Assembly (NCBI GenBank): GCA_021797225.1
Contig: JAKAAE010000031.1
Coordinates: 1-13,634 of the forward strand
Direction of reading: 5' to 3'
Length of the DNA stretch: 13,634 nt
Source: Thermoplasmata archaeon
Lineage (GTDB): Archaea > Thermoplasmatota > Thermoplasmata > Thermoplasmatales > Thermoplasmataceae
The notes under the pieces were generated by a model. That model searched no databases. It saw only the letters and a program-made list of their open reading frames with translations, and was not told the DNA's origin. The translations under genes were made by a program, and so were the position numbers. Of the stretch, positions 1,098-13,634 are shown piece by piece. Positions within the stretch are counted from its first letter, which is position 1, and each line of letters starts with the position of its first letter.

Positions 1098-1115
1098 AAA
1101 TATTTAATTATAAAA
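1098..1115 (+). promoter_or_regulatory. Probable TATA region for the acetyltransferase gene
   Basis: The AT-rich stretch AAATATTTAATTATAAA lies 25-30 bases before an ATG at 1126 and about 45 bases before the acetyltransferase ATG at 1151. Transcription starting near 1126 would give a leader of about 25 bases carrying GAAGGT (around 1139-1144), a plausible Shine-Dalgarno sequence 7 bases before the ATG. This gene would then differ from most genes here, which look leaderless. Confidence 0.4.
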
Positions 1116-1150
1116 TTTGAATACCATGAATCTATCAGAAGGTAAAAGAG

Positions 1151-1684
1151 ATGAATAAGTACTCGTTAAAGGATGGTGAAATAGAGATTACAAATCAATT
1201 CCCTGACGGCCACATGGAAGAGTTTATCCGGAGTGCCAGTGACAGTGAGATGGCTTTCCAGTTGATGACGCATAGCTTTCCCTATCCATACACTGAGGAG
1301 GATGCACTTGCATTTATCCATAAGAACCGTGAATCAGGAAGTGAAATGTTTGAGATAGATTTTTATATTATGTACATGAACAGATTGGTAGGTGTTATCG
1401 GGCTGTCTGACATAGATTGTGAAAATTCACGGGCACATATAGGATACTGGATAGCAAAAGATTGCAGGAATAAGGGGATAGGCAGGAAGGCACTTGGGCT
1501 TACAGTACAGTTCTCACGGGAAAAATTAAAATTAAAGACCCTCTACACAACAGTGTTGACGTCAAACATCCCATCAATAATTATACTCACTGTGAATGGG
1601 TTCACAATGGATGGCTTTTCCAGGTATCGTTTTAGATATGAGAATAAATTTTATTCTGCTTTTACTTTTTCTTTACTGCTGTAA
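1151..1684 (+). CDS. GNAT-family N-acetyltransferase (RimJ/RimL-like)
   Basis: Predicted acetyl-CoA-dependent N-acetyltransferase of 177 residues, the normal length for a single GNAT domain. The acetyl-CoA pyrophosphate-binding motif A is clear: GYWIAKDCRNKGIGRKAL, with R106-N-K-G-I-G111 matching the R/Q-x-x-G-x-G/A pattern. It follows a strand of the type GVIGLSDID. Near the C-terminus N-x-P-S then NGF match the family's N-x-x-S...NGF stretch, but the usual K of KNGF is T-V here. RimJ/RimL-type relatives acetylate protein N-termini, antibiotics or polyamines, and nothing here identifies the substrate. The start ATG has GAAGGT at good spacing. A short frame from ATG 1126 to TAA 1158 overlaps the start and may be chance. 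The gene stands alone between the transposase remnant and the radical SAM gene, so a transferred accessory role is possible. Confidence 0.85.
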   Translation: MNKYSLKDGEIEITNQFPDGHMEEFIRSASDSEMAFQLMTHSFPYPYTEEDALAFIHKNRESGSEMFEIDFYIMYMNRLVGVIGLSDIDCENSRAHIGYWIAKDCRNKGIGRKALGLTVQFSREKLKLKTLYTTVLTSNIPSIIILTVNGFTMDGFSRYRFRYENKFYSAFTFSLLL

Positions 1685-1685
1685 T

Positions 1686-1705
1686 ATTTAGTGGTTCTAC
1701 TAAAT
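1686..1705. repeat. Perfect 7-bp inverted repeat after the acetyltransferase
   Basis: ATTTAGT (1686-1692) and ACTAAAT (1699-1705) are exact complements separated by six bases, starting two bases after the acetyltransferase stop. It could end transcription of that gene or serve as a palindromic operator for the downstream one. No T-run follows directly, so an intrinsic terminator role is uncertain. Confidence 0.4.
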
Positions 1706-1774
1706 TTATGAAAAACCTTGTTATTACTGGTAATCTAAAAAATCTCTATTTAAAAATAATTCTATTTATGACAA

Positions 1775-1784
1775 TATTTATAAA
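1775..1784 (+). promoter_or_regulatory. TATA box of the radical SAM gene
   Basis: TATTTATAAA is centred about 29 bases before the ATG at 1809. This implies a transcript with no leader or a leader of only a few bases, and no Shine-Dalgarno sequence is visible. Confidence 0.55.
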
Positions 1785-1808
1785 CAATAATTCTATAAGT
1801 GCTTTCAT

Positions 1809-3485
1809 ATGACGAAATACGTTTTAGTTTCGGACTCTACCTTGAGTTACGACTACAGAAATTTCCCGTTGCTGGACTTTTTACCGTGCGCTCCGGGAAG
1901 CAAGGTACCCGGAAAGGTTTACAGATTCCTGAGAGGTCCATCCCCTGAGGCATTACCAAATGGCGAGGCAAAAAACGCACCATATGCAATAAGAAAAATA
2001 GAAGCAGGGCTTTTAAGGGATAACCCAAAAAAGGACGTTGCAGTTGCCCATATGGATTATCTTTCAAATTTTATCACAGATGATACGGAAATAATAGGCG
2101 TATCCACAATGGACCCGCTTGGTATAGGTCCGACAACAATGTCATATGCCGCATTATTCGGAGGGGCACTTGATTCATGGGTAAGGCGTGAGTGGGATAT
2201 ACTCATGGAGAGGATCAATCAAATAAGAAAGGGTAAGAAGGCCAAACTTGTTGTTGGCGGACCCGGTGTGTGGGAATTTACAGTTTTAAGAGATGAAATT
2301 GACAAATACCACTTTGATTATGTAGTTTCCGGAGAGATGGATGATATAATATCAGATCTTTTCCGTGGCATAGAGCATGATGATATTGATAAAAATATGT
2401 TCACAAGGGGGTACATGACATACGATGACCATTTCAGAAGAGTTGTAAAAAACGATGACCTATTTGTTGGCAGGGGAACAGGAATAAGAGCATATCCGGC
2501 ACTAGAGGATATACCTGAAATTGTCAATCCCGCAACAAAGGGAATGGTAGAGGTCATGAGAGGTTGCGGTGTTGGATGTGATTTCTGTGAGGTTACACTG
2601 AGGCCTCTGAGATATTACTCACTGGACAGAATAAAGAAAGAAATAGAAGTAAACGTAAAGGGTGGAAATGACCATGCATGGCTTCATTCAGATGAAATAT
2701 TTGAATACAAGCATGAAAAGATGTTTACTCCCAATCAGGATGAATTGGTTGACCTGATGAATACAGTAATGTCTATAAAGGGGGTAACGGGATCAAATCC
2801 CACACATGGAAGAATATCAATACCTGCTGCATTCCCCGATCTTATAAAAAAGCTAAGTGAAATACTGAAGGCTGGGCCTGATAACTGGATAGGCATCCAG
2901 ACCGGAGTTGAAACGGGAAGCGATTCGCTTGCATTAAAGCATATGCCCAATAAAACGATGCCACTGAGAATAGGTCCTGATGGGTCTTTTCATGAGATCG
3001 TCTGGGAAGGTGTCTACAATGAAACTAAGTACTATTGGAGATCGGCTTTTACCATACAGGTCGGACAGCAGGAGGAAACCGACGAGGATAACTGGGACTC
3101 TATTGCGATGATTAACCAACTCAGCCATTCATATGTTGATGGAAGACCTTTTGAATTTACAGTTACACCATTAGTTAATGTGCCGCTTGGAAGGATAAAA
3201 TCCAGAAGTCTGAACTCAATGCTGAACACTACACAGCTCGGCGTTTATTATGCATCCTACAGGCATCTTGCAAAAATGGCAACCAGAGACGGATTCCGTG
3301 ATACCCATGGAAATATATTTTCACGTGCAGGTACAGGGACAATTCTCAGCGTCGGTGGAGAATTAATGCTCAAGATGGTTGAGAAAATAGCCAGAAAGAA
3401 TGGTGTTGATATAGATAAAGTAAAGAAATGGGGAATAGAAAATTCAAAGGAAATTTCCTCACTGAGTATGCTCTCTAGAGCATAA
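1809..3485 (+). CDS. B12-binding-domain radical SAM protein, Tes/Grs-like tetraether-lipid enzyme candidate
   Basis: A 558-residue radical SAM enzyme. The N-terminal about 200 residues form a Rossmann-like, B12-binding-type region with the blocks APYAIRKIEAGLL, GVSTMDPLGIGP and KLVVGGPGVWEF. The radical SAM domain carries RGCGVGCDFC, the canonical CX3CX2C at C253, C257 and C260, which holds the [4Fe-4S] cluster that cleaves S-adenosylmethionine. Further on are GIQTGVETGS and a substrate-side region ending in PLVNVPLGRI. From family knowledge, this arrangement is that of archaeal tetraether synthase (Tes) and GDGT ring synthases (GrsA/GrsB), which couple or cyclise the unactivated phytanyl chains of membrane lipids. 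Thermoplasmata membranes are rich in cyclised tetraethers, so the role fits. Whether it is Tes, a Grs or another relative cannot be told by eye. It is a single gene with its own TATA box. ATG 1809 agrees with that box. Confidence 0.6.
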   Translation: MTKYVLVSDSTLSYDYRNFPLLDFLPCAPGSKVPGKVYRFLRGPSPEALPNGEAKNAPYAIRKIEAGLLRDNPKKDVAVAHMDYLSNFITDDTEIIGVSTMDPLGIGPTTMSYAALFGGALDSWVRREWDILMERINQIRKGKKAKLVVGGPGVWEFTVLRDEIDKYHFDYVVSGEMDDIISDLFRGIEHDDIDKNMFTRGYMTYDDHFRRVVKNDDLFVGRGTGIRAYPALEDIPEIVNPATKGMVEVMRGCGVGCDFCEVTLRPLRYYSLDRIKKEIEVNVKGGNDHAWLHSDEIFEYKHEKMFTPNQDELVDLMNTVMSIKGVTGSNPTHGRISIPAAFPDLIKKLSEILKAGPDNWIGIQTGVETGSDSLALKHMPNKTMPLRIGPDGSFHEIVWEGVYNETKYYWRSAFTIQVGQQEETDEDNWDSIAMINQLSHSYVDGRPFEFTVTPLVNVPLGRIKSRSLNSMLNTTQLGVYYASYRHLAKMATRDGFRDTHGNIFSRAGTGTILSVGGELMLKMVEKIARKNGVDIDKVKKWGIENSKEISSLSMLSRA

Positions 3486-3494
3486 ATCTTTAAA

Positions 3495-3504
3495 GTATTT
3501 ATAG
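3495..3504 (+). promoter_or_regulatory. TATA box of the DUF47-PiT operon
   Basis: GTATTTATAG is centred 24 bases before the ATG at 3524, so the mRNA should start at or next to the start codon (leaderless). The gap to the radical SAM gene is only 38 bases. Confidence 0.6.
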
Positions 3505-3523
3505 ATAATTTTTATACACTGCC

Positions 3524-4204
3524 ATGGTAAATTACAATTTTTTGAAAAAAATTCTTGTTGTTGGTGAAAAAAATCTTTTATCGAGACTTTCAGAATATCC
3601 ATTGATGGGAATAGAAAATTCTTCCAGTTTAATTTCAATGCTTAAAAATGCCCCCGCCAATATTGAAGCATATAATGAAAAAGTCAGAACCATGGAAAAG
3701 AAAGGGGATGAAATGAACATAGATTTTAGGCATGAGGTTACAAGCGGTGCCATAAGCTCAAGTTTAATGGATAATCTGCTGGACCTTATAGAGAAATGTG
3801 ATGATATACTGGATAAAACATATTTTGTGAGCAGAGAATTGAATAGATTCAATATAAATTATAATATGTCTCCTGATGAAAAGGCTATACGTGATCATGC
3901 ATACACTAATTTCATCGACATACTTGAATCCAATAAAAAAGCATTGGATTATGTTCATAGTATATTGAATGAAAACGATCTGGGCAAAATGAGATCTGAT
4001 AGAAGAAACATAGAGGCAATAGAAGAACAGGTGGATGAAATCAAGGATGATATAATAGATTATACGTATAAAAATTCTGGAAAAATGTCATATCTTGTAT
4101 TCGAACACTTGAACACGCTTGCACATAAACTGGATGATTTACTGGATGATTGTGAGGATATTTCAGACCTTGTATTCACCATAATGCTTGCGGTGACAAG
4201 TTGA
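3524..4204 (+). CDS. DUF47/PhoU-like PiT accessory protein
   Basis: A 226-residue, almost wholly helical, charged protein of the DUF47 (TIGR00153, PhoU-like) family, at about the usual length. Recognisable blocks are the N-terminal LLSRLSEYPLMGI, an acidic helix with EKVRTMEKKGDEMNIDFRHEV, and LMDNLLDLIEKCDDILD. The last matches the family's D-I-x-x-L-L-D-x-I-E-x-x-D-x-x-x-D pattern, with acidic residues that bind metal in PhoU-like bundles. The C-terminus repeats the theme with HKLDDLLDDCEDISDLV. In bacteria and archaea these proteins are encoded next to PiT phosphate permeases and are thought to control them. Here the reading frame overlaps the permease gene by four bases, so the two are probably translated in concert. 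It has no membrane segments and acts at the cytoplasmic face. Regulation by phosphate is plausible but not visible in the DNA. Confidence 0.85.
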   Translation: MVNYNFLKKILVVGEKNLLSRLSEYPLMGIENSSSLISMLKNAPANIEAYNEKVRTMEKKGDEMNIDFRHEVTSGAISSSLMDNLLDLIEKCDDILDKTYFVSRELNRFNINYNMSPDEKAIRDHAYTNFIDILESNKKALDYVHSILNENDLGKMRSDRRNIEAIEEQVDEIKDDIIDYTYKNSGKMSYLVFEHLNTLAHKLDDLLDDCEDISDLVFTIMLAVTS

Positions 4205-5100
4205 TATTTTTTATTTTTTCGCTCATACTAACATTCTTCCTCACGCTTCTTGTTTCGGGAAATAATCTTTCCGCAGCGGTAGGAACACTAATAGGTTCAA
4301 GAATAGTGGAAAGATATGCTGGAATTTTGATTGGTTCTACGGGTTTTTTCATGGGTCTTATAATTGAGGGAAGATTCCTTCATGGCGCATCTCTTTCTCT
4401 GATACCGCATTCATATTTCTATATCACATATGCATTTCTTATTTCATTTCTTATATTTCTTTTTGCGAATATAGGAAGGGCACCTCTATCGCTGACAATG
4501 GCACTTGCAGGTACTGCTCTTGGTATAGATATCCGCATTCGCTATCCCGTCGATTATAATTTTGTTCTTCTCATGATTACCTTCTGGGTAATAGCGCCTA
4601 TTATTTCCATAATTGTTTCATATATAACGGAACGCGAAGTTTTTCACAGAAATTTCAAGAATGTCTGGGGTGTTGCAAAATGGCTTAAGTTCTTAATAAT
4701 TGTTTCATCATTTTTAACAGCCTTTACCCTGGGAGCGAATACACTTGGATTCATAGCAAATGTGGAGGGTTTTAATGTTACAACCATTTTAATTATGACT
4801 TTTGCAATATTTGCAGGATCCCTATTCTTCAGCAGCGGAGTAATAAAAAGGGTGGGGGAGGAAATGTACTCTATGAGGTATTCAAACGCGCTGGTTTCAC
4901 TGGTTGTGTCATCCCTGCTTGTTGAAATTGCTACACTATTTGCTGTACCGCTTTCAAATACCCAAACACTGACATCCAGTGTTTTCGGTGTTGGCATTTC
5001 CTATAAATACAAGGCCATTTATATGAAGCCATTTTTTATTATTATTCTGACATGGATATTATCACCGTCACTGGGATTTATACTTGGGTATATGGTCTGA
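4201..5100 (+). CDS. pit: Divergent PiT-family phosphate/anion permease
   Basis: A 299-residue integral membrane protein with about eight to ten hydrophobic segments, shorter than most PiT carriers, which have 400 or more residues and a central loop. The start is TTG 4201, which overlaps the upstream stop (TTGA). No better start lies upstream in frame, and the next Met (residue 51) would remove the first family motif. The family assignment comes from SGNNLSAAVGTLIGSR at residues 19-34, which aligns with the PiT signature GANDAANxxGTxxGSR, and from the duplicated PLSLTMALAGTALG and PLSNTQTLTSSVFGVG, which align with P-V-S-T-T-H/Q. Several polar signature residues are changed: Asp to Asn22, Asn to Ala25, and the His of STTH to Gln. 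Phosphate uptake coupled to Na+ or H+ is the family role, but these changes leave the substrate open. The DUF47 partner upstream supports the assignment. Confidence 0.82.
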   Translation: MIFFIFSLILTFFLTLLVSGNNLSAAVGTLIGSRIVERYAGILIGSTGFFMGLIIEGRFLHGASLSLIPHSYFYITYAFLISFLIFLFANIGRAPLSLTMALAGTALGIDIRIRYPVDYNFVLLMITFWVIAPIISIIVSYITEREVFHRNFKNVWGVAKWLKFLIIVSSFLTAFTLGANTLGFIANVEGFNVTTILIMTFAIFAGSLFFSSGVIKRVGEEMYSMRYSNALVSLVVSSLLVEIATLFAVPLSNTQTLTSSVFGVGISYKYKAIYMKPFFIIILTWILSPSLGFILGYMV

Positions 5101-5868
5101 CTACAGTCCATGTGTCAGGTTATCAATTCTTCCTCCATCCACAACAAGTACCTGCCCATCCATATATTCAGATTCATTGCTGGCAAGGAATAAAGCTGCA
5201 TCTGCTATATTTTCCGGTTTACCTGTCATATTGAGTTCAGTTCTCGATCTGAATGACTGCCTGAGCTTCTCTGCTTCTTCAGGACTCTTGCCACCAAGGG
5301 TCATATCTGATTCTATCCATCCAGGTGCAATGGCATTTACTCTAACATGCCATTCCATCAAATCAAATGCAAGCCTCTTTGTCAACATAGCAATTGCAGC
5401 CTTCGTCATTGAATAAATCGTAGTTCCCTTAGCTGCTGTGCCCACACCGGCATTTGATGACATATTAATTATTATGCCATGATTTTTCTTGAGATCGTTC
5501 AAACAGTTTTTCACAGTGTATATTGGTCCCATGAGATTTATATCGAATATTTTCCTCACCTTTTCTTCGTCAAACTCATCCCATGAAAATGAGCTGAGTA
5601 TACCTGCATTGTTTACCAGAATATCTATGGTGCCCATCTTCTCATGTATATCTTTTATCATACGCTCGACTGAAGCATGATCTGATACATCGGCCTGAAA
5701 AATTTCTGAACCGGGAAGATCCTTTCTCAATTTTTCTGCAGATTCCCTGTCTCTATTGTAATTTATAGCTATCCTTGCACCCTCCTCTGTAAATTTCCTT
5801 GCTATTGCACTACCAAGACCTCTTGAAGATCCTGTTATCAATACTATTTTATTATCAAGTTTTGCCAT
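5101..5868 (-). CDS. Short-chain dehydrogenase/reductase (classical SDR)
   Basis: An NAD(P)H-dependent oxidoreductase of 255 residues from the preferred ATG at 5868. The Rossmann motif TGSSRGLG is at residues 12-19 and NNAG at 86-89. The catalytic tetrad is N111, S138, Y152 and K156 (YSMTK). The C-terminal block APGWIESDM and the ending GQVLVVDGG are typical of the FabG/glucose-dehydrogenase branch. Arg39 after the second strand (NYNRDRE) suggests a preference for NADP. The substrate is unknown: a sugar, a polyol or a 3-oxoacyl compound are all possible. A GTG at 5886 could add six residues (MAILLI), but a TATA box lies 25 bases before ATG 5868, which favours a leaderless start there. The stop codon (5101-5103) directly abuts the PiT stop on the other strand, leaving no intergenic base. 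Confidence 0.88.
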   Translation of the reverse strand: MAKLDNKIVLITGSSRGLGSAIARKFTEEGARIAINYNRDRESAEKLRKDLPGSEIFQADVSDHASVERMIKDIHEKMGTIDILVNNAGILSSFSWDEFDEEKVRKIFDINLMGPIYTVKNCLNDLKKNHGIIINMSSNAGVGTAAKGTTIYSMTKAAIAMLTKRLAFDLMEWHVRVNAIAPGWIESDMTLGGKSPEEAEKLRQSFRSRTELNMTGKPENIADAALFLASNESEYMDGQVLVVDGGRIDNLTHGL

Positions 5869-5888
5869 AATTAATAATATTGCCACCG

Positions 5889-5896
5889 TATAAAAA
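5889..5896 (-). promoter_or_regulatory. TATA box of the SDR gene
   Basis: On the minus strand the sequence reads TTTTTATA, centred 25 bases before ATG 5868. This spacing is what decided the start codon for the SDR over the GTG six codons upstream. Confidence 0.6.
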
Positions 5897-5940
5897 TATG
5901 GTGCAAACCTGAAATTACATCGGTAACTTTTCTAGTAAAT

Positions 5941-5950
5941 GTTAAATATT
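5941..5950 (+). promoter_or_regulatory. TATA box of taw1
   Basis: GTTAAATATT is centred 24-25 bases before ATG 5970, the position expected for a leaderless transcript. The divergent SDR promoter is about 50 bases away. Confidence 0.5.
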
Positions 5951-5969
5951 CTTATTAAATTGGTAAATA

Positions 5970-6947
5970 ATGATCAACAATTATGAGGCCGTCTATAAAA
6001 AGCAGCATTACGGGCTGGTTGGGAGTCATTCTGCTGTAAAGGTTTGCCACTGGACGAAAAGTGAATTACTCGGTAAGGCCCCATGTTATAAAAACACATT
6101 TTATGGAATAAAATCACATCAGTGCGTACAGATGACCCCTGCACTGAATTCGTGCTCTGAGAACTGCGATTTTTGCTGGAGATTCCAGGGATTTGATTCC
6201 ATGCATATAAATGAGGAAGATGATCCGGAATTCATACTGGAAGAGAGCATCAAAGCTCATCTCAAACTCATATCCGGCTTCAAGGGAAATCCCAAGGTAA
6301 AGAAAGAATTGTTTGAGGAGGCATCGCATCCGAGACATATGGCTATATCCCTGACAGGAGAACCCACGCTTTACACCAGGCTTGGTGAGCTAATAGAAGC
6401 GGCTACCAGGAGAGGAATAACAACATTTGTTGTAACAAATGGAACCATGCCTAAGGTACTTGAGAATTTAAATCCGTTGCCTACTCAGTTATATGTGACC
6501 GTTGCAGGGCCTAATAAAGAGGTTTTCAATGATGTATTACATCCTGCCATAGGAAATGCATGGGAAAACTTCAATAAAACAATTGATCTACTGCCATCCC
6601 TGGATACCAGAACGGTAATAAGGCATACCATGGTAAAAAATATTAATTTCCCGTATTATGATGAGTATGAAACTATAGACAGACGTGCCGATCCGGATTT
6701 CATAGAATCAAAGGGATATGTCCATGTAGGGCAGTCAGCAGGGAGATTATCATACGAGAACATGCCAACACATGATGAAATCCTGGAATTTTCCGGTGAA
6801 CTCGCCCGAAGGCTTGGGTATGTTGAATATGCCGATAGATTTGAGAGCAGGGTAGCCATGATAGCAAAAAATCCAGAAATCGCTAAAATAAATGTTGATG
6901 AAGAAATACAAAAAACTCTCAATAAACTTGAAATAAAGAGAAAATGA
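5970..6947 (+). CDS. taw1: tRNA 4-demethylwyosine synthase Taw1 (archaeal TYW1)
   Basis: A radical SAM enzyme of 325 residues that converts N1-methylguanosine-37 of tRNA-Phe plus pyruvate into 4-demethylwyosine, the tricyclic core of the wyosine bases. The radical SAM cluster motif is C62-S-E-N-C66-D-F-C69. Three further cysteines, C26, C39 and C52, are at the spacing known for the second [4Fe-4S] cluster of the Methanocaldococcus jannaschii enzyme. K41, the position proposed to hold pyruvate as a Schiff base, is also present (CYKNTFYGI). Other family blocks are ISLTGEPTLY, FVVTNGT and YVTVAGPN. There is no N-terminal flavodoxin domain, as expected for the archaeal form. Its length is close to that of the family. 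It is a single-gene unit, convergent with the small gene at 6960 with a 12-base gap. Confidence 0.97.
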   Translation: MINNYEAVYKKQHYGLVGSHSAVKVCHWTKSELLGKAPCYKNTFYGIKSHQCVQMTPALNSCSENCDFCWRFQGFDSMHINEEDDPEFILEESIKAHLKLISGFKGNPKVKKELFEEASHPRHMAISLTGEPTLYTRLGELIEAATRRGITTFVVTNGTMPKVLENLNPLPTQLYVTVAGPNKEVFNDVLHPAIGNAWENFNKTIDLLPSLDTRTVIRHTMVKNINFPYYDEYETIDRRADPDFIESKGYVHVGQSAGRLSYENMPTHDEILEFSGELARRLGYVEYADRFESRVAMIAKNPEIAKINVDEEIQKTLNKLEIKRK

Positions 6948-6959
6948 GCATTGGCATAT

Positions 6960-7145
6960 CTATTTTATATCTATTTTCTTTAATTTTTTTACCGGTTCTG
7001 CAGGTGATACATTGTTGTTAAGCATCCTGGAACCGAACCTTAAAAGCTCAAGTCCACCATCAAAAAACTTTTTGCCTTCCTGGAGGGCAGTTCCAACAAT
7101 ACGTGGTACCTCTATATTTATCTGTATTACTGTTTTTTTATCCAT
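6960..7145 (-). CDS. 61-residue protein of unknown function, last gene of the prenyl synthase operon
   Basis: No family was recognised. The sequence starts with a short strand-like stretch (TVIQINIEVPRIVG), followed by an amphipathic helix (EGKKFFDGGLELLRFGSRML) and a basic tail (VKKLKKIDIK). There is no cysteine, signal peptide or long hydrophobic segment. The ATG at 7145 is nine bases downstream of the Get3-like gene's stop with no promoter between them, so it should be expressed from the same mRNA. Translational linkage to the ATPase is the best argument that it is real. A role as a partner or regulator of the ATPase is only a guess. Confidence 0.6.
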   Translation of the reverse strand: MDKKTVIQINIEVPRIVGTALQEGKKFFDGGLELLRFGSRMLNNNVSPAEPVKKLKKIDIK

Positions 7146-7154
7146 ATCCAGTAA

Positions 7155-8315
7155 TTAACTTAATGTTATATATAGATAACCGTTTTTGAGTTCTGCCCCT
7201 GTAGGTTGCATATTGGCCATGGTCTGTGGAAGATAAAGTATACGTTTCCAGTTTTTTACCTCAACAATAAGTTCACCGGCTCTATTAAACAGATTCAGAT
7301 TTTCTTTATCTGCAAATGGAAGCTTCATTTTGACCATGGTTTTGCCATTCTCTCTTGTGAATTCTATTGGTTTCCCCTTATAAAAGACGGAATATGGGTC
7401 TTCTGACCCGTAAAGGTCATGGGCAAATTTGAGCACTTTCTCCTGGCCCATGAGTTCATAGTTTTGCAGGTAGCTTTTAAAAACCTTTATTTCTGGAAAC
7501 GAGGCGTCAAGTTCTCCAATTATTTGTGCCTGTGTTTCCCTCCAGTTGCTGAAGAAATCGCCAGTATTTTCCGGATATATTTTATTTGCTATTATTGCAT
7601 CCACAGGGTATCCATAGAGAAGCAAATATGTAAACGCACGCTTGGTTTCATTGAAGGACATCTGATCAGCGTTGGTTACCAGCCTTATGGAGGTGATATC
7701 CGGATCTTCCAGAATTTTATGTATTTCTCCCAGGTCATCGTAAAGTGTTTCTGCACTCTTGAATACCTTGTCATTAGGCATGGGTATACCAGTGAAAGGC
7801 CGCATTATGGGTCTGGCTATTTTGGCAGCAGTCCTGCTTATGGGAAATACCTTTTCCATGTACCAGCGCATAACCTCGGGAAATGAAAGCATCCTCAATG
7901 CCTCTCCTGTCGGGGCACTGTCCACAACAATTACATCGTATTCATTGTTCTTTATATAATCATTTATGTACAGCAAATATGTGGCTTCCTCAAAACCTGG
8001 AAGTATAGCTATTTCATCTGCTGAAATAGGATCGAGGCCCTGGTACTGGAATAGGGCTGTCAGGTACTCCCTGAGATCCTTCCAGTGTGATTCTATTGCA
8101 TCGTTTATATTTATTTCCTGAGCATATAGATTCTCTGAAATCTTTGTAGCTTGAGATTTAATTTCTGTATTTAGAGAATCACTGAGGCTATGAGCAGGAT
8201 CTGTTGACATCACTATGGTTTTCCTGTTGTTTTTTGCCAGCATTGACGCTGTAGATGCTGCAACACTTGTCTTGCCAACTCCACCTTTTCCTGTATACAA
8301 TAATACCCTTGTCAT
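7155..8315 (-). CDS. Get3d-like ArsA/Get3 ATPase with C-terminal HSP20-like domain
   Basis: A 386-residue P-loop ATPase of the ArsA/Get3 family (SIMIBI class). The deviant Walker A GKGGVGKT is at residues 9-16, the switch I DPAHS at 39-43, and a switch II-like VVDSAPTGEALRML follows near residue 130. Residues about 315-386 form the small alpha-crystallin-like domain (ArsA HSP20, PF17886), ending in PTGAELKNGYLYITL. The protein contains no cysteine, so it lacks both the Zn-binding CXXC of classical Get3 and the arsenite-binding cysteines of ArsA. This combination matches the Get3d group, which is thought to bind hydrophobic cargo. Arsenite transport is therefore unlikely. The ATG overlaps the prenyl synthase stop by one base (TAATG) and has a strong Shine-Dalgarno sequence, so it is the second gene of an operon. 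The cargo is unknown. Confidence 0.9.
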   Translation of the reverse strand: MTRVLLYTGKGGVGKTSVAASTASMLAKNNRKTIVMSTDPAHSLSDSLNTEIKSQATKISENLYAQEININDAIESHWKDLREYLTALFQYQGLDPISADEIAILPGFEEATYLLYINDYIKNNEYDVIVVDSAPTGEALRMLSFPEVMRWYMEKVFPISRTAAKIARPIMRPFTGIPMPNDKVFKSAETLYDDLGEIHKILEDPDITSIRLVTNADQMSFNETKRAFTYLLLYGYPVDAIIANKIYPENTGDFFSNWRETQAQIIGELDASFPEIKVFKSYLQNYELMGQEKVLKFAHDLYGSEDPYSVFYKGKPIEFTRENGKTMVKMKLPFADKENLNLFNRAGELIVEVKNWKRILYLPQTMANMQPTGAELKNGYLYITLS

Positions 8316-9307
8316 TATATCACTCCTGATTCATTAATTCTATCCACCACAATAAGTGCCAAGTCCATTAATAGACCCAGGTCTTCTGATCTGCCTATAC
8401 CGTTTAAATTTTCTACTGATCTGAGAATATAGTCCTTTGCTATCTTGAAAGCATATTCCAGAGACCCTGATTTAAAAAGTAAATCCCTGAATTTAATTTT
8501 ATAATCGGTTTCTTTATATTGACCGTGCAGTATACTTACCAGTATTTTCATATCTGCAGAATCTACATGGGATAAGGCGTGTATTATGGGAAGTGTTATA
8601 ACGTCATGGTTTAAATCTACCATCGTTGGCTTCCCCATTTCCTTTTCATTGCCAACTATATCCAGTATATCATCTGTAATTTGAAATGCCATGCCCATGT
8701 TGAAGGCAAAATCACTTAATTTCTTTCTAACTGTTTTATCCGCCCTGCCGGCTATGGTTGCACCCTCTGCACATGCCGAAAAAAAGTACGCTGTCTTATT
8801 TTTTATTATATTGTTATATGTTTCAATACTAAGTGAAAGATTTCCTATATTCAAAGCCTCTATAACCTGACCCTCAGCAAGATGTGAAGACCCATCAGCC
8901 ATCACTTTTGATACCTCAGGCCCATATCTGGATCCGAGCTCGTATGCCTTTGCAAAAAGATAGTCTCCAACTACTATGGCATTGTCAATACCATCCCGGG
9001 AATACAGAGTTTCACGGCCACGTCTGTATTTTGATTTGTCTATTATGTCGTCATGTATGAGACTGGCAGTATGGATTAATTCGTAACCTGCGGCAAGGTC
9101 CAGAATTTTTTCGTATGGCTCGTAGCAGGATATTTCATATGACAGTATTGTTAGCAGGGGTCGGAACCTTTTGCCGCCGGCATCAATCGTATATTTTGCC
9201 ATATCGAACAGATAATTCTGGTCAGTTTTTATGGATTCAAGAAGTCGTGAATTAACCTCATTAATCTTATCCCTGAGACCATACTGCCATTCATAGAAGT
9301 TTTTCAT
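8315..9307 (-). CDS. trans-Polyprenyl diphosphate synthase (GGPP or longer chain)
   Basis: An all-helical, Mg2+-dependent prenyltransferase of 330 residues that extends an allylic diphosphate with isopentenyl diphosphate. GGKRFRP is at 44-50. The first Asp-rich motif is DDIID (D86-D90), followed by the substrate-binding Arg pair RRGRETLY. The second Asp-rich motif is DDILD (D212-D216), and GQ at 146-147 is also in place. In this family the residue five places before the first motif limits chain length. Farnesyl and archaeal geranylgeranyl synthases usually have an aromatic residue there, while this enzyme has Ala81 with Ser82 beside it, as in hexa- to octaprenyl synthases. It could supply a menaquinone side chain, although C20 for archaeal lipids is the default for archaeal homologues. 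It is first in an operon with the Get3-like ATPase. ATG 9307 fits the TATA box. Confidence 0.92.
   Translation of the reverse strand: MKNFYEWQYGLRDKINEVNSRLLESIKTDQNYLFDMAKYTIDAGGKRFRPLLTILSYEISCYEPYEKILDLAAGYELIHTASLIHDDIIDKSKYRRGRETLYSRDGIDNAIVVGDYLFAKAYELGSRYGPEVSKVMADGSSHLAEGQVIEALNIGNLSLSIETYNNIIKNKTAYFFSACAEGATIAGRADKTVRKKLSDFAFNMGMAFQITDDILDIVGNEKEMGKPTMVDLNHDVITLPIIHALSHVDSADMKILVSILHGQYKETDYKIKFRDLLFKSGSLEYAFKIAKDYILRSVENLNGIGRSEDLGLLMDLALIVVDRINESGVI
8319..8327 (-). promoter_or_regulatory. Strong Shine-Dalgarno site for the Get3-like gene
   Basis: On the minus strand AGGAGTGAT, close to perfect for the archaeal anti-Shine-Dalgarno sequence, ends three bases before ATG 8315 and lies inside the last codons of the prenyl synthase gene. 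It supports ATG 8315 as the start. It also shows that internal operon genes here use Shine-Dalgarno initiation while first genes look leaderless. Confidence 0.75.
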
Positions 9308-9324
9308 CGAAACACCAAGTGATA

Positions 9325-9335
9325 TTTATGTATAG
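9325..9335 (-). promoter_or_regulatory. TATA box of the prenyl synthase operon
   Basis: On the minus strand the sequence reads CTATACATAAATA, with its AT core centred 21-25 bases before ATG 9307, again matching a leaderless or nearly leaderless start. It should drive all three genes down to 6960, since no promoter-like sequence or spacing separates them. Confidence 0.5.
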
Positions 9336-9386
9336 AAAATTATGATTTAAGGTTTTGTAGAAATTTTTTTTACACATTATAAAAAT

Positions 9387-9659
9387 TTATTTTGTAAGTA
9401 CTATTTCTATGGATGAAACGTTTGAAGGCCCATTTTCTCCTTCTAGCGTTTCTGTATCAAGCTTGATGCTTTCATATGTTGCTGTCTGGATAAATTTATG
9501 CTTGGTAATTTCTGCAATATCAACTGCCTTGCTTATGGCTTTTCCTCTTGCTTTTATCACTATTCTATTTATATCAGAATTATTAAACTGAGTCACAATA
9601 GCCAGTACATAGTTCATAGTTGGTTTTCTTCCCACAAAGATTATGTTTTCTTCAGACAT
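9387..9659 (-). CDS. alba: DNA/RNA-binding chromatin protein Alba
   Basis: A 90-residue Alba (Sac10b family) protein at full family length. Diagnostic blocks run throughout: IIFVGRKPTMNYVLAIVTQFN at the N-terminus, then IVIKARGKAISKAVDIAEI, then the C-terminal VSSIEIVLTK. Alba dimers coat DNA and RNA and are a main chromatin protein in many archaea. The R11-K12-P13 segment holds the lysine equivalent to the one whose acetylation weakens DNA binding in Sulfolobus. The gene is monocistronic, with a TATA-like TTATATATT (around 9689-9697) about 34 bases before the ATG, giving a leader of roughly 9 bases. A full bacterial-type Shine-Dalgarno sequence is not seen. Thermoplasma-type archaea also carry an HU-like protein, so Alba may share the chromatin role. 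Confidence 0.97.
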   Translation of the reverse strand: MSEENIIFVGRKPTMNYVLAIVTQFNNSDINRIVIKARGKAISKAVDIAEITKHKFIQTATYESIKLDTETLEGENGPSNVSSIEIVLTK

Positions 9660-9712
9660 GTAAATTACCCAATTCTACATTTATTCAGAATATATAATAA
9701 TATCGTTAAATT

Positions 9713-10102
9713 TCATTTAAGCCTTACCATTGTATCTGTGTTCAGTACACCACTCATATCTCTGATTTTATCTACCTCCATATTTAATTCATCAATTGTA
9801 CTTTTCAGGATCCTCACAGCAACGTCAATTCTACCGGAAAATTCGTAAACATCCCTGTAAATGTTTTTCAAAAGTTTAATTGTGTTTGTTGCTATTCTTG
9901 AATCCAGTTTTATTAAAACTATACCCTCAATAGATATGGCAGTTTCCACGGTAAACTTTTGAATTACACCGGAACTTACCATATTAAATATACGCTTCCT
10001 TATGGTTCCCTCTGAAACGTTTAAATTTCTTGCTATCTCCATATTTTTTTCTCTTGAATTTTCCCGCAACATGTCTAAAATCTTAAAATCCATTTCATCC
10101 AT
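9713..10102 (-). CDS. Lrp/AsnC-family transcriptional regulator
   Basis: A 129-residue regulator. The N-terminal winged helix-turn-helix covers residues about 1-50: the classic opening MDEMDFKILDMLRENSREKNMEIA, then the recognition helix region VSEGTIRKRIFNMVSSGVIQKFT. Residues about 58-129 are a compact alpha/beta RAM-type ligand-binding and oligomerisation domain (GIVLIKLDSRIAT... VYEFSGRIDVAVRI). It is slightly shorter than the usual 140-165 residues, mainly in the C-terminal half. Archaeal members sense amino acids or act as general regulators. The effector and targets cannot be read here. It is co-oriented with Alba but has its own TATA box (TTTAAATT at 10124-10131, 25 bases before the ATG), and 53 bases separate it from Alba. 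Confidence 0.92.
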   Translation of the reverse strand: MDEMDFKILDMLRENSREKNMEIARNLNVSEGTIRKRIFNMVSSGVIQKFTVETAISIEGIVLIKLDSRIATNTIKLLKNIYRDVYEFSGRIDVAVRILKSTIDELNMEVDKIRDMSGVLNTDTMVRLK

Positions 10103-10123
10103 TTTACTCTATTTCAGTAGATA

Positions 10124-10131
10124 ATTTAAAT
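10124..10131 (-). promoter_or_regulatory. TATA box of the Lrp-family gene
   Basis: TTTAAATT, within an AT-rich run, is centred 25 bases before ATG 10102. This predicts a leaderless transcript. Confidence 0.5.
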
Positions 10132-10151
10132 TTATTTGTACGAATATTTTC

Positions 10152-10406
10152 CTATCTATAAAGGCCTTTATCAGCTTCAGTTTTCTTTTTTATAGCTTCT
10201 TTCGGTACCTTCATGGTTCTTATCATAGGTACTGCATTTATGCCATACTGTGGAAGCCCGGTGTTTGGATCGTTTCCAACTTTCATGATTGACATTATTT
10301 CCATTTTAATTTCCAGTACGGCTCCATCATCCAGGGATACCCTTATCCATTTTGGCTCCTCCTCCATTTTAAATCCCATAACAGCATTATTATTTTCATC
10401 ATCCAT
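10152..10406 (-). CDS. 84-residue conserved-looking archaeal protein of unknown function
   Basis: No named family could be assigned. The protein has an acidic start (MDDENNN), a central beta-rich core (KWIRVSLDDGAVLEIKMEIMSIMKVGNDPNTGLPQYGI) and a basic end (KVPKEAIKKKTEADKGLYR). The pattern of WIRVxLDDGxVLEIK followed by GNDPNTGLPxY resembles small hypothetical proteins seen across archaea, but this is recollection and not a search. It has no cysteine and no membrane segment, so it should be a soluble small barrel-like protein. A TATA box sits 24 bases before ATG 10406, which supports both the start and its being a real gene. It is co-oriented with the Lrp-family gene but separated from it by a 49-base gap containing that gene's own promoter. 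Confidence 0.75.
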   Translation of the reverse strand: MDDENNNAVMGFKMEEEPKWIRVSLDDGAVLEIKMEIMSIMKVGNDPNTGLPQYGINAVPMIRTMKVPKEAIKKKTEADKGLYR

Positions 10407-10425
10407 AATATCTTAGTGATATATC

Positions 10426-10435
10426 ATATAAATAT
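10426..10435 (-). promoter_or_regulatory. TATA box of the 84-residue protein gene
   Basis: On the minus strand AATATTTATATG is centred about 24 bases before ATG 10406. It is one of the better TATA matches in the window and predicts a leaderless mRNA. Confidence 0.55.
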
Positions 10436-10499
10436 TATATTATCTCTTCAGGATGCTCTTAAAAAAACTTATTAATCAAAAACATATTACTACCGGAAC

Positions 10500-10584
10500 G
10501 CAAGGGTAACTAAGCTTGGCCAAAGGTGTAGGACTTAAGATTCTATCTCGAAGGAGTTCGCGGGTTCAAATCCCGTCCCTTGCA
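10500..10584 (+). tRNA. tRNA-Leu (anticodon UAA)
   Basis: A class II tRNA of 85 bases. The acceptor stem is GCAAGGG (10500-10506) with CCCTTGC (10577-10583) and discriminator A at 10584. The anticodon stem is TAGGA/TTCTA and the loop is CTTAAGA, giving anticodon TAA at 10536-10538, which reads UUA/UUG leucine codons. A long variable arm (CTC-GAAG-GAG around 10546-10554) is present as required for tRNA-Leu. The T arm is GCGGG-TTCAAAT-CCCGT, with a G-U pair at its outer end. CCA is not encoded and no intron is seen. The D loop contains the standard GG (TTGGCCAAAGG). The gene lies at the border between core-type genes on its left and accessory genes on its right. Confidence 0.96.
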
Positions 10585-10727
10585 TGATTATAAAAGTTCA
10601 ATGCAGTAACATGCTAGGTTAGTGTTCTCAATTCTTTATTTATATACTTCCGATCCTGTTTTTGTAATATAAAAATAACATTATATAATTACTGGATTAT
10701 ATTATAAGTATGCTATAACGAAAAATG

Positions 10728-10735
10728 TATATATA
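10728..10735 (+). promoter_or_regulatory. TATA box of the toxin-antitoxin operon
   Basis: TATATATA is centred about 24 bases before ATG 10755, again the leaderless spacing. The 170 bases between the tRNA and this gene hold no other recognisable feature apart from short T-runs. Confidence 0.55.
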
Positions 10736-10754
10736 GTGATTTTAATTGTAGTAT

Positions 10755-11324
10755 ATGGAGAAAGTAAAAATAAGCGGAGTAGACCTTGTTAAATATCTAT
10801 TAAGCAAATATGGTCCATTGTCCCAGAAGAAATTACAAAAACTTTCTTATTTTGCTGAATATGAATATGTTAAAAAATATGGAAAAAGATTATCTGATCT
10901 ATCATTCAAGCGTTATTATTTTGGTCCTTATTCTGAAGATATAAAAAACATTGAAGACCTTGAAGAAGATATTATAATTAAAGAACAGGCAGGTACCAAT
11001 CCTGCAAAGGAATCAGAGCTTATTAATGATGATTTTAAAATAGATAATAAAACCTCAGTTATTATAGATAATCTTATAAAACCATATATTAATAAAAATG
11101 GAAAGGAACTTGAGGAACTGGCAGATAAAACGGAGCCTTATATCGATGCAGAAGATTTCGACAATCCTATAGACCTTGACAGCTTTGCATGGTTTTACAG
11201 TGAAGTTAATTCTGATGATTTCTGGAAAAATGCCGAAGAAATAGACAAAGAGAATATCCGAAAAGGAATATATGGTAGGCATATAATAAAAGATGATTCT
11301 GACATAGATTCTCTATTTTCATGA
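10755..11324 (+). CDS. Panacea-domain (DUF4065) antitoxin
   Basis: A 189-residue protein whose first 75 residues carry the Panacea/DUF4065 pattern: a leading helix (GVDLVKYLLSKYG), the hallmark LSQKKLQKLSYFAEYEYVKKYG, then FKRYYFGPYSEDI with the conserved F/Y-G-P turn. The rest is acidic and helical (EELADKTEPYIDAEDFDNPIDLDSF), which is usual for these proteins. Panacea proteins (PanA, SocA-like) are antitoxins known to neutralise many unrelated toxins through this one domain. The gene is first in a two-gene operon and is followed after five bases by a RelE/ParE-fold protein, which strongly suggests an antitoxin-toxin pair. The ATG fits the TATA box. Codon use is very AT-rich. No DNA-binding domain is obvious, so autoregulation is uncertain. 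Confidence 0.85.
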   Translation: MEKVKISGVDLVKYLLSKYGPLSQKKLQKLSYFAEYEYVKKYGKRLSDLSFKRYYFGPYSEDIKNIEDLEEDIIIKEQAGTNPAKESELINDDFKIDNKTSVIIDNLIKPYINKNGKELEELADKTEPYIDAEDFDNPIDLDSFAWFYSEVNSDDFWKNAEEIDKENIRKGIYGRHIIKDDSDIDSLFS

Positions 11325-11329
11325 TTTAA

Positions 11330-11614
11330 ATGTGTGATAATTATTCTATTGATTTATCTGCTATAGAAGATTATATACAAAAGGTTAAAGATAAAAATAT
11401 CAAAGAACAGATTAAAAAGAAAATATATGCGGTGAAGGAAAATCCCTATATCGGTGCCACTAAAACAGGCCGTATCAAAAATTACAGAACAGTAAAAGTA
11501 AACAGGCAAAAAATCGTAATACTCTATAGAATAGAGGAAGAAGACTGCATGGCCATATTTATAAAAATTGGCACACATGATGAAGTTTATAATAAAACCT
11601 ATGGGAAAAGATAA
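11330..11614 (+). CDS. RelE/ParE-superfamily toxin
   Basis: A 94-residue basic protein with the RelE/ParE plan: N-terminal helices (SAIEDYIQKVKDKNIKEQIKKKIYAV), then the N-P of KENPYIG, then a beta sheet (GRIKNYRTVKVNRQKIVILYRIEEEDCMAIFIKIGTHDEVY). The candidate active-face residues R53, R59, R67, H83 and Y87 fall where RelE-type toxins place the charged and aromatic residues that cut ribosome-bound mRNA. The terminal G-T-H-D-E-V-Y matches the family's G-x-H-x-x-V-Y ending. ParE-like gyrase poisons share the fold, so the target is not settled. The ATG is five bases after the antitoxin stop with no Shine-Dalgarno sequence, suggesting translation coupled to the antitoxin. Confidence 0.85.
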   Translation: MCDNYSIDLSAIEDYIQKVKDKNIKEQIKKKIYAVKENPYIGATKTGRIKNYRTVKVNRQKIVILYRIEEEDCMAIFIKIGTHDEVYNKTYGKR

Positions 11615-11636
11615 AGGCCATTAAAAATAAATATTA

Positions 11637-11720
11637 TCATTCATCAGATCTGTATTCATGTCTCCTGGCCTTATCCACCAGGTACAATCGATAGGTTATG
11701 AAAAAGGCATTTCTCTGCAT
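11637..11720 (-). pseudogene. Short coding-like remnant beside the IS3-type OrfA
   Basis: A 27-codon stretch on the minus strand (MQRNAFFITYRLYLVDKARRHEYRSDE, running to TGA at 11637-11639) reads like real protein and continues upstream in frame for some residues without a start. It is in a different frame from the OrfA remnant that it follows. It could be a remnant of the element's second reading frame or an unrelated gene tail. I do not recognise it. Confidence 0.25.
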
Positions 11721-11733
11721 GGATTTATTCTCA

Positions 11734-11904
11734 TCATTCCAGTTCCTTTCTTCCTCCTTCTAAGAACTGATCCTTCCATTTGTAGAACATTGATACAGCT
11801 ATTCCATGGTTCCTGCATATCTCTGCTATGGTAATATCAGGATTCTGGAATGATTCCATTATAATATTATACTTCTCCTCACCGGTCCATATTCTTCCAG
11901 GCAT
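11734..11904 (-). pseudogene. Truncated IS3-type transposase OrfA (HTH_Tnp_1)
   Basis: From ATG 11904 the minus strand encodes 56 residues that match the start of the IS3/ISA1214-type OrfA helix-turn-helix protein: M-P-G-R-I-W-T-G-E-E-K-Y-N-I-I-M, then DITIAEICRNHGIAVSMFYKWKDQFLEGGRKELE, the classic I-A-E-I-C-R-x-x-G-I-S-x-x-x-F-Y-x-W-x-x-x-F-L-E-G-G pattern. Two consecutive TGA codons (11734-11736 and 11731-11733) end it right after the HTH. The rest of OrfA and the DDE-bearing OrfB are missing. In an intact element OrfA binds the terminal repeats and is fused to OrfB by frameshifting. This copy is a decayed fragment. No terminal repeat was identified. It shows that this region has received mobile DNA. 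Confidence 0.8.
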
Positions 11905-12273
11905 TTAGATTACCTTGCTAATATATTTATATAAATTATTCTTTATATATATCTATTTAGATTTGCATAGGTTTAAACTATCTATAACTACTAATGAACT
12001 ACACTTTGGAATTCTGAAGAAGCTTTCAATGAAGGAAATAGTGAAAAACTATAGAGTAGATAACGCTAAAGTGAATAACTATTTAGCGGTGGCATAAAGG
12101 AATGTTAAGTATAGGTTTTTCATAGAAGTAAAATAATTACATTATCCAAATTATTTATTTGAATTTAAGAGTAAAACATTTTGACTCAAATTAAGGCTAA
12201 GACTATTTATAATAGCCGTATATTGCAATACTTTAATTTCACCTTGGGATTCCTTACATAGTTTATGAATATT
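11905..12273. other. About 370-base stretch with no convincing gene
   Basis: Very AT-rich. A forward frame ending at 12097 gives a C-terminal stretch (LSMKEIVKNYRVDNAKVNNYLA) that looks faintly like a helix-turn-helix, but it has no credible start and its N-terminal half is low-complexity. Near 12204-12220 there is an imperfect palindrome (GACTATTTATAATAGCC). Otherwise I see no gene, RNA or repeat. Confidence 0.4.
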
Positions 12274-13212
12274 TCAATTTTTAGACCTTAGTGGGCATTT
12301 TAGCTGTGCCGGATTCCCAGATAACTGACCCCTAACCCAATATGTCAATTTATCAGTGTTTATATTTACTGTTCCATCTTCATTTATTTTCCATATAGTA
12401 TTCTTATCGTCATATAAGGCTACAGTACATTTCTGTATGCTACCATCAGACCTTATAACATATTCCGAGAACGAGGCGTCATAACACATTATACAAGCAT
12501 CTCTATACAATGTTAAATGTAATTTCCTCGCTTTTAATGTCAGGGTTGTTATCATATTTTTCACTATCTCAGGATTTTCTATAACCGGTAAATCATTGTC
12601 ATTTTTCCCACCCAGTTTAGATAGCCCACGTATAAATAACAAAAATCTATCATCATATGCAAAATCCTCTGATAATTTGTCGATGAATTTTGATATACCT
12701 TCATAATTATTTTTATTTAAATGTAGCCGAATTATGATTGATGATCTTAAGTTACTATTATGTAGATTCACTAAATTCCGATATATAATTTTGAAAGAGC
12801 CATTTCCAACTCTGGTTATCCTGAGTTTATCGTGCAGATCCTGATTTCCATCAAAAGAAATTTGAAAGCGGTTAACTCCCAACTCATTCAATTCATATAA
12901 CTTCTTTAATGTTAGTAAACTACCATTTGTGGTCATAGATGATATGAGCGTAAAATTGTATTTCTCTGACAAGCGGTGTGAAAATTGCATTATATCTTTT
13001 ATTATATTATATGCAAGCATGGGCTCTCCTCCAAACCAATCTATGGTTAATTCTTCAAGTGTAGGTGCTCTATTCAATATCTAATTTTTAATACCGTTAA
13101 AAGTTTTAGTTTCCATCTTTTTAAGAATAAAATTTTCATAACAATAAACACACCGAAAATTGCATAGCTCGGTAGGCATGATTATTAATATCAGATTTTT
13201 ATTGTATATCAT
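12274..13212 (-). pseudogene. Radical SAM/SPASM-type peptide maturase interrupted by an in-frame TAG
   Basis: Read on the minus strand from ATG 13212, the frame gives IIMPTELCNFRCVYCYENF, with a perfect radical SAM CX3CX2C followed by YE. A TAG stop follows at 13081-13083. The same frame then continues without further stops to TGA at 12274, with NRAPTLEELTIDWFGGEPMLA (the GGE SAM-binding motif), TTNGSLLT, FQISFDGNQDLHDKLR, and a SPASM-like end: ACIMCYDASFSEYVIRSDGSIQKCTVAL then WVRG and LKCPL. Such enzymes install thioether or C-C crosslinks in ribosomal peptides. The family fit on both sides of the TAG is continuous, so only the stop separates the cluster motif from the rest of the barrel. 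The 267-codon part could start at TTG 13077, but without the three cysteines it would be inactive. It is most likely a recent nonsense pseudogene. A sequencing error is the main alternative. Confidence 0.8.
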
Positions 13213-13233
13213 AAATTTCAGAATAAAATAATA

Positions 13234-13374
13234 TTAATAAAGTATTTCAAGCTCTACGCCACATCTTAAGTTAGCCATTTTCGGGCTTATTGGATCATTC
13301 TCTCCATTAATTTCAGAATATTTTATCACACCAAATCTATCAACTTCTATACTCCATTTTATATGTTCTTTCAT
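13234..13374 (-). CDS. Small reading frame (46 codons), candidate precursor peptide
   Basis: An ATG at 13374 opens 46 codons ending in TAA at 13234-13236, 21 bases before the maturase ATG and in the same frame. The sequence is hydrophilic at first (MKEHIKWSIEVDRFGVIKYS), then NGENDPISPKMANLRCGVELEILY, with one Cys near the C-terminus. Size, position and orientation fit a precursor peptide cut and crosslinked by the adjacent radical SAM/SPASM enzyme, with an N-terminal leader and a C-terminal core. No known precursor family is recognised. Alternatively it is the N-terminal part of the maturase cut off by a second stop, or an independent small protein. A TATA-like ATATAT on the minus strand (around 13396-13401) lies 25 bases before the ATG. 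Confidence 0.45.
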   Translation of the reverse strand: MKEHIKWSIEVDRFGVIKYSEINGENDPISPKMANLRCGVELEILY

Positions 13375-13393
13375 GTCTATCAAGATATTGATG

Positions 13394-13413
13394 CGATATA
13401 TGTATATATAAAG
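13394..13413. promoter_or_regulatory. Divergent promoter region with overlapping TATA elements
   Basis: The run GATATATGTATATATAAAGG contains TATATATAAA (13403-13412), centred 23 bases before the transporter ATG at 13431 on the plus strand. On the minus strand it contains CATATATC (13395-13402), centred about 25 bases before ATG 13374. Both directions fit leaderless starts. The two divergent genes would therefore be controlled through one 20-base region. Confidence 0.5.
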
Positions 13414-13430
13414 GTTTGTATTTTAGGATT

Positions 13431-13634
13431 ATGCTTAACAATTACGAAAAAATATATATTGCAATTTTTTTGAATTCTTTATTATATGGGGCAGCATTAA
13501 TTTTCGTTGATTTAATTCTAATTAGAACCGGTTCGATATTGCTGGGGAGTATAACGTTATCTGTATTTTACATACCGGCTATATTTTCATTTATCATAGG
13601 GCCATTAACTGATAGCATAAAAAATAAAAAATTA
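13431..13634 (+). CDS. MFS-type transporter, N-terminal fragment (runs off the window)
   Basis: The first 68 residues of a membrane protein whose 3' end lies beyond the window. Two hydrophobic segments are visible: residues about 8-30 (IAIFLNSLLYGAALIFVDLIL) and about 36-57 (ILLGSITLSVFYIPAIFSFIIG). They are followed by GPLTDSIKNKKL, which matches the loop 2-3 signature (motif A, G-x-x-x-D-x-x-x-x-K/R-K) of the major facilitator superfamily. Substrate and full length are unknown. It is divergent from the candidate peptide and maturase genes and shares their promoter region, the position often taken by an exporter of the finished peptide, but this is inference. Confidence 0.65.
   Translation, partial: MLNNYEKIYIAIFLNSLLYGAALIFVDLILIRTGSILLGSITLSVFYIPAIFSFIIGPLTDSIKNKKL

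Follow-up and report, generated by a model that had tools for sequence, protein, structure and literature searches.

The NxxC class of RaS-RiPPs (radical S-adenosylmethionine (SAM) enzyme-modified RiPPs, where RiPP stands for ribosomally synthesized and post-translationally modified peptide) reportedly goes back to Caruso et al. 2019. In its example from Streptococcus orisratti, NxxcB links Cys23 of the precursor NxxcA to the beta-carbon of Asn20, as stated in PMC8326336 and PMC13361665. Among the other described systems, PapB requires an acceptor that follows the cysteine (Asp, in CX3D), the reversed order not being crosslinked (PMC9413430), and SCIFF precursors carry six cysteines (PMC8326336). 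For archaea, antiSMASH has yielded bulk predictions of radical SAM RiPP clusters (ranthipeptides, sactipeptides), and the Thermoplasmatota are among the phyla with most clusters (PMC12144867). Here, we describe a locus at the right end of a 13,634-nucleotide stretch of DNA from a Thermoplasmata archaeon (family Thermoplasmataceae; GCA_021797225.1, JAKAAE010000031.1; the whole stretch is called the window in the following), in which a small peptide gene, a radical SAM maturase gene and a divergent transporter gene of the major facilitator superfamily (MFS) lie next to each other. With high confidence, this locus is a real RiPP cassette. Its parts are listed below; genomes and loci used for comparison are numbered G and L, respectively.

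13234..13374, minus strand: precursor peptide gene, 46 codons from ATG 13374; similar small open reading frames (ORFs) lie beside related maturases
13383, minus strand: alternative in-frame TTG start of the precursor, resulting in 49 codons
13324..13350, minus strand: leader motif IEVDRFGVI, residues 9-17 of the peptide, based on leader profiles and motif counts
13261..13272, minus strand: core motif N35-L-R-C38, predicted thioether ring, based on Asn enrichment at -3 from Cys
13081..13212, minus strand: 5' piece of the radical SAM maturase gene, 43 aa, ending at the in-frame TAG 13083..13081
13141..13164, minus strand: CxxxCxxC radical SAM cluster motif (C17, C21, C24), based on sequence and homolog alignment
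12274..13080, minus strand: 3' maturase piece, a 267-aa ORF from TTG 13077, carrying the auxiliary cysteines C243, C262 and C306
13375..13430: A/T-rich intergenic region of 56 bp separating the starts of the divergent peptide and MFS genes; it contains TATATAAA near 13405-13412
13431..13634, plus strand: divergent MFS transporter gene, 5' end only since the window edge cuts the gene, based on similarity to an MFS_1 protein of L010

The original prediction had described this arrangement as a possible undescribed archaeal RiPP-like cassette. Its 46-codon frame was found at 13374..13234 on the minus strand, separated by 21 bases (13213-13233) from the ATG of the whole radical SAM frame (13212..12274, minus strand), and the C-terminus RCGVELEILY with its single Cys can be read in the translation. 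For the peptide-maturase-type gene, the radical SAM frame with CxxxCxxC was recovered, but the gene is broken by an in-frame TAG at residue 44. The divergent MFS-like gene is present as a frame from 13431, the start of which shares 61% identity across 67 aa with one of the two MFS proteins of L010; this L010 protein is placed in MFS_1 by Pfam, and the window fragment itself gave no Pfam match. A promoter shared by both genes may lie in 13375..13430, as read by eye. A protein identical to the 46-aa peptide is encoded in 16 contigs.

The main evidence is the recurrence of such a peptide beside homologous maturases. In 11 of 11 archaeal loci with upstream DNA (the window, L010-L013, L015-L017, L019, L020 and L022; a twelfth, L014, ends at the contig end), a separate small ORF comprises the leader motif and a variable, Cys-bearing C-terminus. 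This is the conservation by which the original prediction was to be checked, and the two findings named as speaking against it, a peptide fused into the N-terminus of the maturase or a small frame conserved nowhere beside it, were not made in these loci. L010, L015 and L017 are longer cuts of the places L001, L002 and L007, where the small ORFs directly upstream of the maturases read MIDNIEIDNYGVIKTINEIDEGHKIMKMLGGCGCINISCM, MEIDDYGRIYGIDEEIDLMDALGNFICKVINAGAC and MNVDKYGIVTMEQETIINGSMNELLEAQIICIENGHC, respectively.

The precursor leader motif is hydrophobic-x-hydrophobic-[DN]-x-x-G-x-[IV], paired with a C-terminal N-x-x-C. It was formulated after the sequences had been inspected and was counted strictly, with no hand selection, in 79 loci, namely the window and 78 of 80 genome loci (the best 80 of 180 found with the maturase profile); L012 and L014 were excluded, since their match starts less than 300 bases from the contig end, and near-copies (e.g. 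L053/L054, L077/L078) were counted individually. Of the 239 small ORFs that lie upstream on the strand of the maturase, 36 (in 36 loci) have both leader and N-x-x-C, compared to 0/255 upstream on the other strand, 0/241 downstream on the opposite strand and 1/170 downstream on the same strand. The leader alone showed 53/239 (51 loci) against 0/255, 4/241 and 3/170, while N-x-x-C alone was less discriminating with 57/239 against 13/255, 5/241 and 11/170 in the same order of controls. A looser count, superseded by the strict one, comprised 72/406 upstream same-strand ORFs compared to 27/471 upstream on the opposite strand and 18/307 and 40/450 downstream.

The spacing of Asn and Cys was determined in 62 chosen precursors, considering the 132 cysteines within their last 35 residues; 15 ORFs were removed from the set of precursors by hand and 8 were put into it by hand (5 of these without leader anchor, 7 with N-x-x-C). 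Asn was observed 64 times at -3 from Cys compared to 10.3 after shuffling, and 25 times at -1 compared to 10.9, values that none of 2000 shuffles attained; for all remaining offsets, at least 40 of 2000 shuffles attained the observed number. N-x-x-C is present in 47 of the 62 chosen precursors and in 9 of 11 archaeal ones, that is in all seven Thermoplasmata precursors seen and in L016 and L019.

The match of the window peptide to leader and N-x-x-C exceeds chance. On a 9-column leader matrix, from the training of which it was excluded, it scores 14.8, the next best of the 124 small ORFs of the window reaching 4.4, and 25 of 50,000 shuffles attained this score (all leader matrices and the hidden Markov model (HMM), with 9 or 16 columns, were trained on hand-anchored windows). 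N-x-x-C within the last 35 residues occurs in 4 of the 124 ORFs. In pairwise alignments, the score of the window peptide was attained by 3 of 2000 shuffles for the L010 peptide, by 22 for L012 and by 29 for L017.

The maturase matches Pfam PF04055 with 63.2 bits (cut-off 29.5) across both pieces, with the stop read as X. In 70 aligned homologs (from the best 120 listed of 3086), C17, C21 and C24 as well as three auxiliary cysteines corresponding to C243, C262 and C306 are invariant. A full SPASM C-terminus comprises a seven-Cys motif; it was not found here, 66 of the 70 homologs having no Cys beyond the third auxiliary one. A RiPP recognition element (RRE) was not found at the maturase N-terminus either, where only 5-56 residues precede the first cluster Cys in the 70 homologs; no search for a separate RRE gene was made. 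The modelled fold resembles those of CteB and anSME, without the N-terminal domain of CteB, the model aligning to CteB only from CteB residue 88-90. CteB has a full SPASM domain. A profile of four archaeal maturases gave 3086 proteins at E <= 1e-20, some of which may be from neighbouring families, and homologs occur in archaea (including Thermoplasmata, Micrarchaeota and Marsarchaeota), Pseudomonadota, Actinomycetota, Cyanobacteriota, Bacillota and others. In a tree of 81 rows, the 12 archaeal rows form one group (98/86), within which the window pairs with L010 (100/97). Altogether, enzyme and peptide are a cross-domain family that is not restricted to archaea. Many bacteria share the pair of enzyme and peptide, and for the chemistry of N-x-x-C there is a characterised case in Streptococcus; due to the bulk antiSMASH predictions in archaea, the word undescribed could fit only the maturase/peptide family and its motif pair. 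A literature search, conducted mostly without subscription papers, returned no account of the cassette, nor of N-x-x-C peptides outside Streptococcus. A scan of viral sequences with the maturase gave four loci, among them L090 (2079-3361, on an IMG/VR contig filed as viral) with a precursor-like ORF ending in DTNCSCNV and a maturase match of which the frame is lost about half way.

None of the listed NCBIfam cut-offs was exceeded by the six family members scanned. Their best match was TIGR04463, a radical SAM/SPASM RiPP maturase, with 112.8-167.9 bits (112.8 for P0001, 133 for L001 and 119.3 for L002) compared to a cut-off of 525, the matches beginning only at profile position 79-83. NF047865 (PapB) was the fourth best match of the three archaeal maturases scanned, with 99.7 (P0001), 109.4 (L001) and 105.2 bits (L002) compared to a cut-off of 340. 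With the PapB/freyrasin system, the locus shares thioether chemistry, as predicted here, and Cys-bearing precursors, but in the former the acceptor Asp follows the Cys and an RRE domain is expected to bind the leader (PMC9413430). The SCIFF maturase CteB (PDB 5wgg, 5why) differs by a further N-terminal part that the maturases here do not match. NxxcA/NxxcB likewise combine N-x-x-C, with the Cys three positions after the Asn, a radical SAM enzyme with an auxiliary-cluster domain and a small precursor; NxxcB is listed as a SPASM enzyme, whereas the maturases here have a three-Cys C-terminus (PMC8326336, PMC13361665, PMC9012708). Further differences are the archaeal and broad bacterial hosts, the DxxG leader motif and the MFS neighbour in Thermoplasmata.

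Since the N-x-x-C spacing matches NxxcA and PapB needs the opposite order, the NxxC reaction is indicated. By this analogy, the product would, with moderate confidence, be a thioether of the N-x-x-C type with a ring between Asn35 and Cys38. Acidic and aromatic residues had been suggested as crosslink sites; the predicted partner of Cys38 is instead Asn35 in N-L-R-C. The leader would dock straight onto the maturase and the 5'-deoxyadenosyl radical would take a hydrogen from Asn35, presumably from the beta-carbon as in NxxcA. Addition of the Cys38 thiolate, possibly coordinated where an auxiliary [4Fe-4S] cluster with three Cys has an open site, to Asn35 would then close a four-residue thioether ring. 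The leader would be removed afterwards, and the MFS protein may export the peptide or protect the producer, these biological roles of peptide and MFS protein being putative.

The nearest genome compared to the window contains 38% of the window's sampled words. Maturase matches at E <= 1e-10 were obtained in 6 of 31 related genomes, with only three close ones in two genomes, namely G006 (L001, 61%) and G003 (L002, 49%; L007, 47%). Among 400 sampled genomes of the class, three carry six copies in total at E <= 1e-50, and the cassette is therefore rare and patchy; a genome can carry multiple cassettes, as seen in G003 (two) and G206 (three). MFS_1 adjoins all seven other Thermoplasmata cassettes (L010-L015, L017), and at L010 (3131-5811) one precursor and maturase lie with two neighbouring MFS genes. 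Of the other archaeal loci, L016 and L019 were scanned with Pfam. At L019, MFS_1 lies downstream of the archaeal maturase. At L016 (2084-3280), an M16-family peptidase, which could be a leader protease, immediately follows the Micrarchaeota maturase, and then MFS_1 on the other strand.

DNA homologous to the window peptide and MFS start, without a maturase ORF between, was found at G003:C31 and G009:C8 (frameshifted precursor relics beside MFS and without maturase, L110 3270-4690 and L111 2461-3851, in G003 and G009), next to a gene that we take to be electron-transfer-flavoprotein-like. The relic peptides are broken by frame changes, KPKMANNMC and KTKMANNGC still being readable in one frame. 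In G009, one ORF of 404 aa still covers the MFS gene, which in G003 is split; that the gene is whole at one of the two relic loci despite the lost maturase and precursor is what an immunity role of the MFS protein would predict. G003 carries its relic locus besides the two cassettes L002 and L007. We conclude that the cassette turns over fast.

The observations underlying the RiPP reading are the co-occurrence of peptide and maturase, the leader motif, N-x-x-C, the modelled CteB/anSME-like fold and the three invariant auxiliary cysteines. Taken as a whole, we consider it likely that the locus is a cross-domain RiPP cassette of precursor, radical SAM maturase and MFS transporter for an NxxC-like thioether, of which the window copy is a young pseudogene. 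Several points weigh against this. A 16-column HMM puts the window peptide first of 137 ORFs, yet with E = 0.2; among 20,000 shuffles, its 16-column matrix scores were attained 430 times with a matrix from all training rows, 1202 times with the archaeal rows alone and 796 times with the bacterial rows alone, these matrices ranking it fourth once and beyond the top five twice, and its pairwise scores with L011, L013, L015, L019, L020 and L022 were attained by 232 to 1086 of 2000 shuffles. In 18 of the 79 loci, no upstream ORF has leader or N-x-x-C (among loci without upstream signal, candidates lie downstream at L032, L067 and L080 and farther upstream at L049), and the archaeal precursors of L020 and L022 have no N-x-x-C. 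The crosslink chemistry is proposed by analogy only, and since NxxcB was compared by description only, the cassette is said to work like the NxxC class, membership not being claimed. The two changes of the window maturase in near-invariant columns (A245D, G274W) are weak evidence of decay: L017 departs at three besides its stop, L020 and L022 at two each and L010-L016 and L019 at none, and among all 148 rows 109 have no departure and 19 have two or more. The weak long-profile scores and the weak scores against six of nine archaeal peptides would fit a small frame that arose by chance or that is a regulatory upstream ORF with no peptide product, as would its shortness and A/T-richness. Such an explanation is nonetheless highly improbable, since position, leader and N-x-x-C recur in 36 of 79 loci and almost never in control positions, the score against the L010 peptide was reached by so few shuffles, and the same peptide remains readable in relic form next to related MFS genes. 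Another radical SAM modification, such as an alpha-carbon thioether (sactipeptide), epimerisation or tyramine excision (splicease), is unlikely, the enriched feature being Asn at -3 from Cys. The splice site of spliceases is a conserved Tyr-Gly (X-Y-G). In the 51 distinct leader windows, Tyr precedes the G only 9 times; X-Y-G splicing is therefore no family trait, and a splicease system was dropped as a candidate.

The in-frame TAG (13083..13081), where L001, L002 and L007 have Leu, separates the CxxxCxxC piece from the rest of the enzyme and results in two ORFs, the surrounding frame being open and alignable to relatives. A TAG is present in two of eight Thermoplasmata maturase loci (L014 incomplete), the window and L007 = L017, where it lies at a different site at which the window has Gln. 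In the protein database, the window maturase occurs in truncated form (P0013, 248 aa, 3 members, 5 contigs, perhaps including the window's own), and the best 120 proteins listed include no longer form that is near-identical; this suggests that the TAG is not a single-read error. Pyrrolysine at the TAG was dropped as a candidate with PylS over cut-off in 0 of 8 relatives; weak matches below cut-off occurred in 8/8 relatives and 13/14 control genomes, and one control was over cut-off. A cassette that works despite the TAG, by readthrough, as a split two-piece enzyme or with an intact maturase elsewhere in the genome, would be consistent with the intact peptide and visible MFS part, the maturase frame open for 267 codons past the TAG, the two or three cassettes that genomes may carry and the likewise single TAG of L007. 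On the other hand, two further frames of the window that were regarded as genes, 5886..5101 and 10406..10152, terminate in TAG, PylS did not exceed the cut-off in any of the eight relatives, a split enzyme would part the cluster motif from the barrel, and the sole near-identical protein among the best 120 listed is the truncated P0013, which may include the window itself. Accordingly, a working cassette is regarded as improbable. Because its maturase carries a stop codon, the window copy is probably non-functional, and with moderate to high confidence it is a recent pseudogene with undecayed precursor and visible MFS part, unless an intact maturase acts in trans.

Concerning the genomic setting, a single stretch of G001 runs collinear with window 1101-10584 (93%), 10581-11740 matches another G001 contig at 96%, and in G001 and G007 the pieces 127-1089 and 11738-11988 occur several times. 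Since the matches are split over G001 contigs and accompanied by multicopy pieces, the cassette lies in a variable region, and the block 10581-11740 moves, it seems, separately from the chromosome on its left side. The cassette region adjoins transposon-like and toxin-antitoxin-like genes. By Pfam, 10755-11614 (plus strand) contains a gene with a SocA/Panacea domain and, after it, one for a ParE-like toxin, and transposase pieces with several copies in related genomes lie in 1-1089 and 11734-11992 (DDE_Tnp_1 at 274-864, HTH_Tnp_1 at 11734-11904).

A more far-reaching picture can be offered only tentatively and is rather doubtful. In it, the family would form a cross-domain class of Asn-Cys thioether peptides with maturases that do without an RRE and without half the SPASM domain, the leader docking directly by DxxG and the core Cys filling the open site of the three-Cys cluster, and the Thermoplasmata product would be a strain-against-strain weapon with the MFS protein for export or immunity. 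If true, it could be tested directly how a leader is recognised without an RRE and what a three-Cys auxiliary cluster contributes to thioether formation. The analysis flags 3086 proteins (E <= 1e-20) as enzymes that likely crosslink Asn to Cys and lack a recognition domain, and for the archaea it points to a RiPP system of which the predicted crosslink is definite and testable and of which intact relatives exist.
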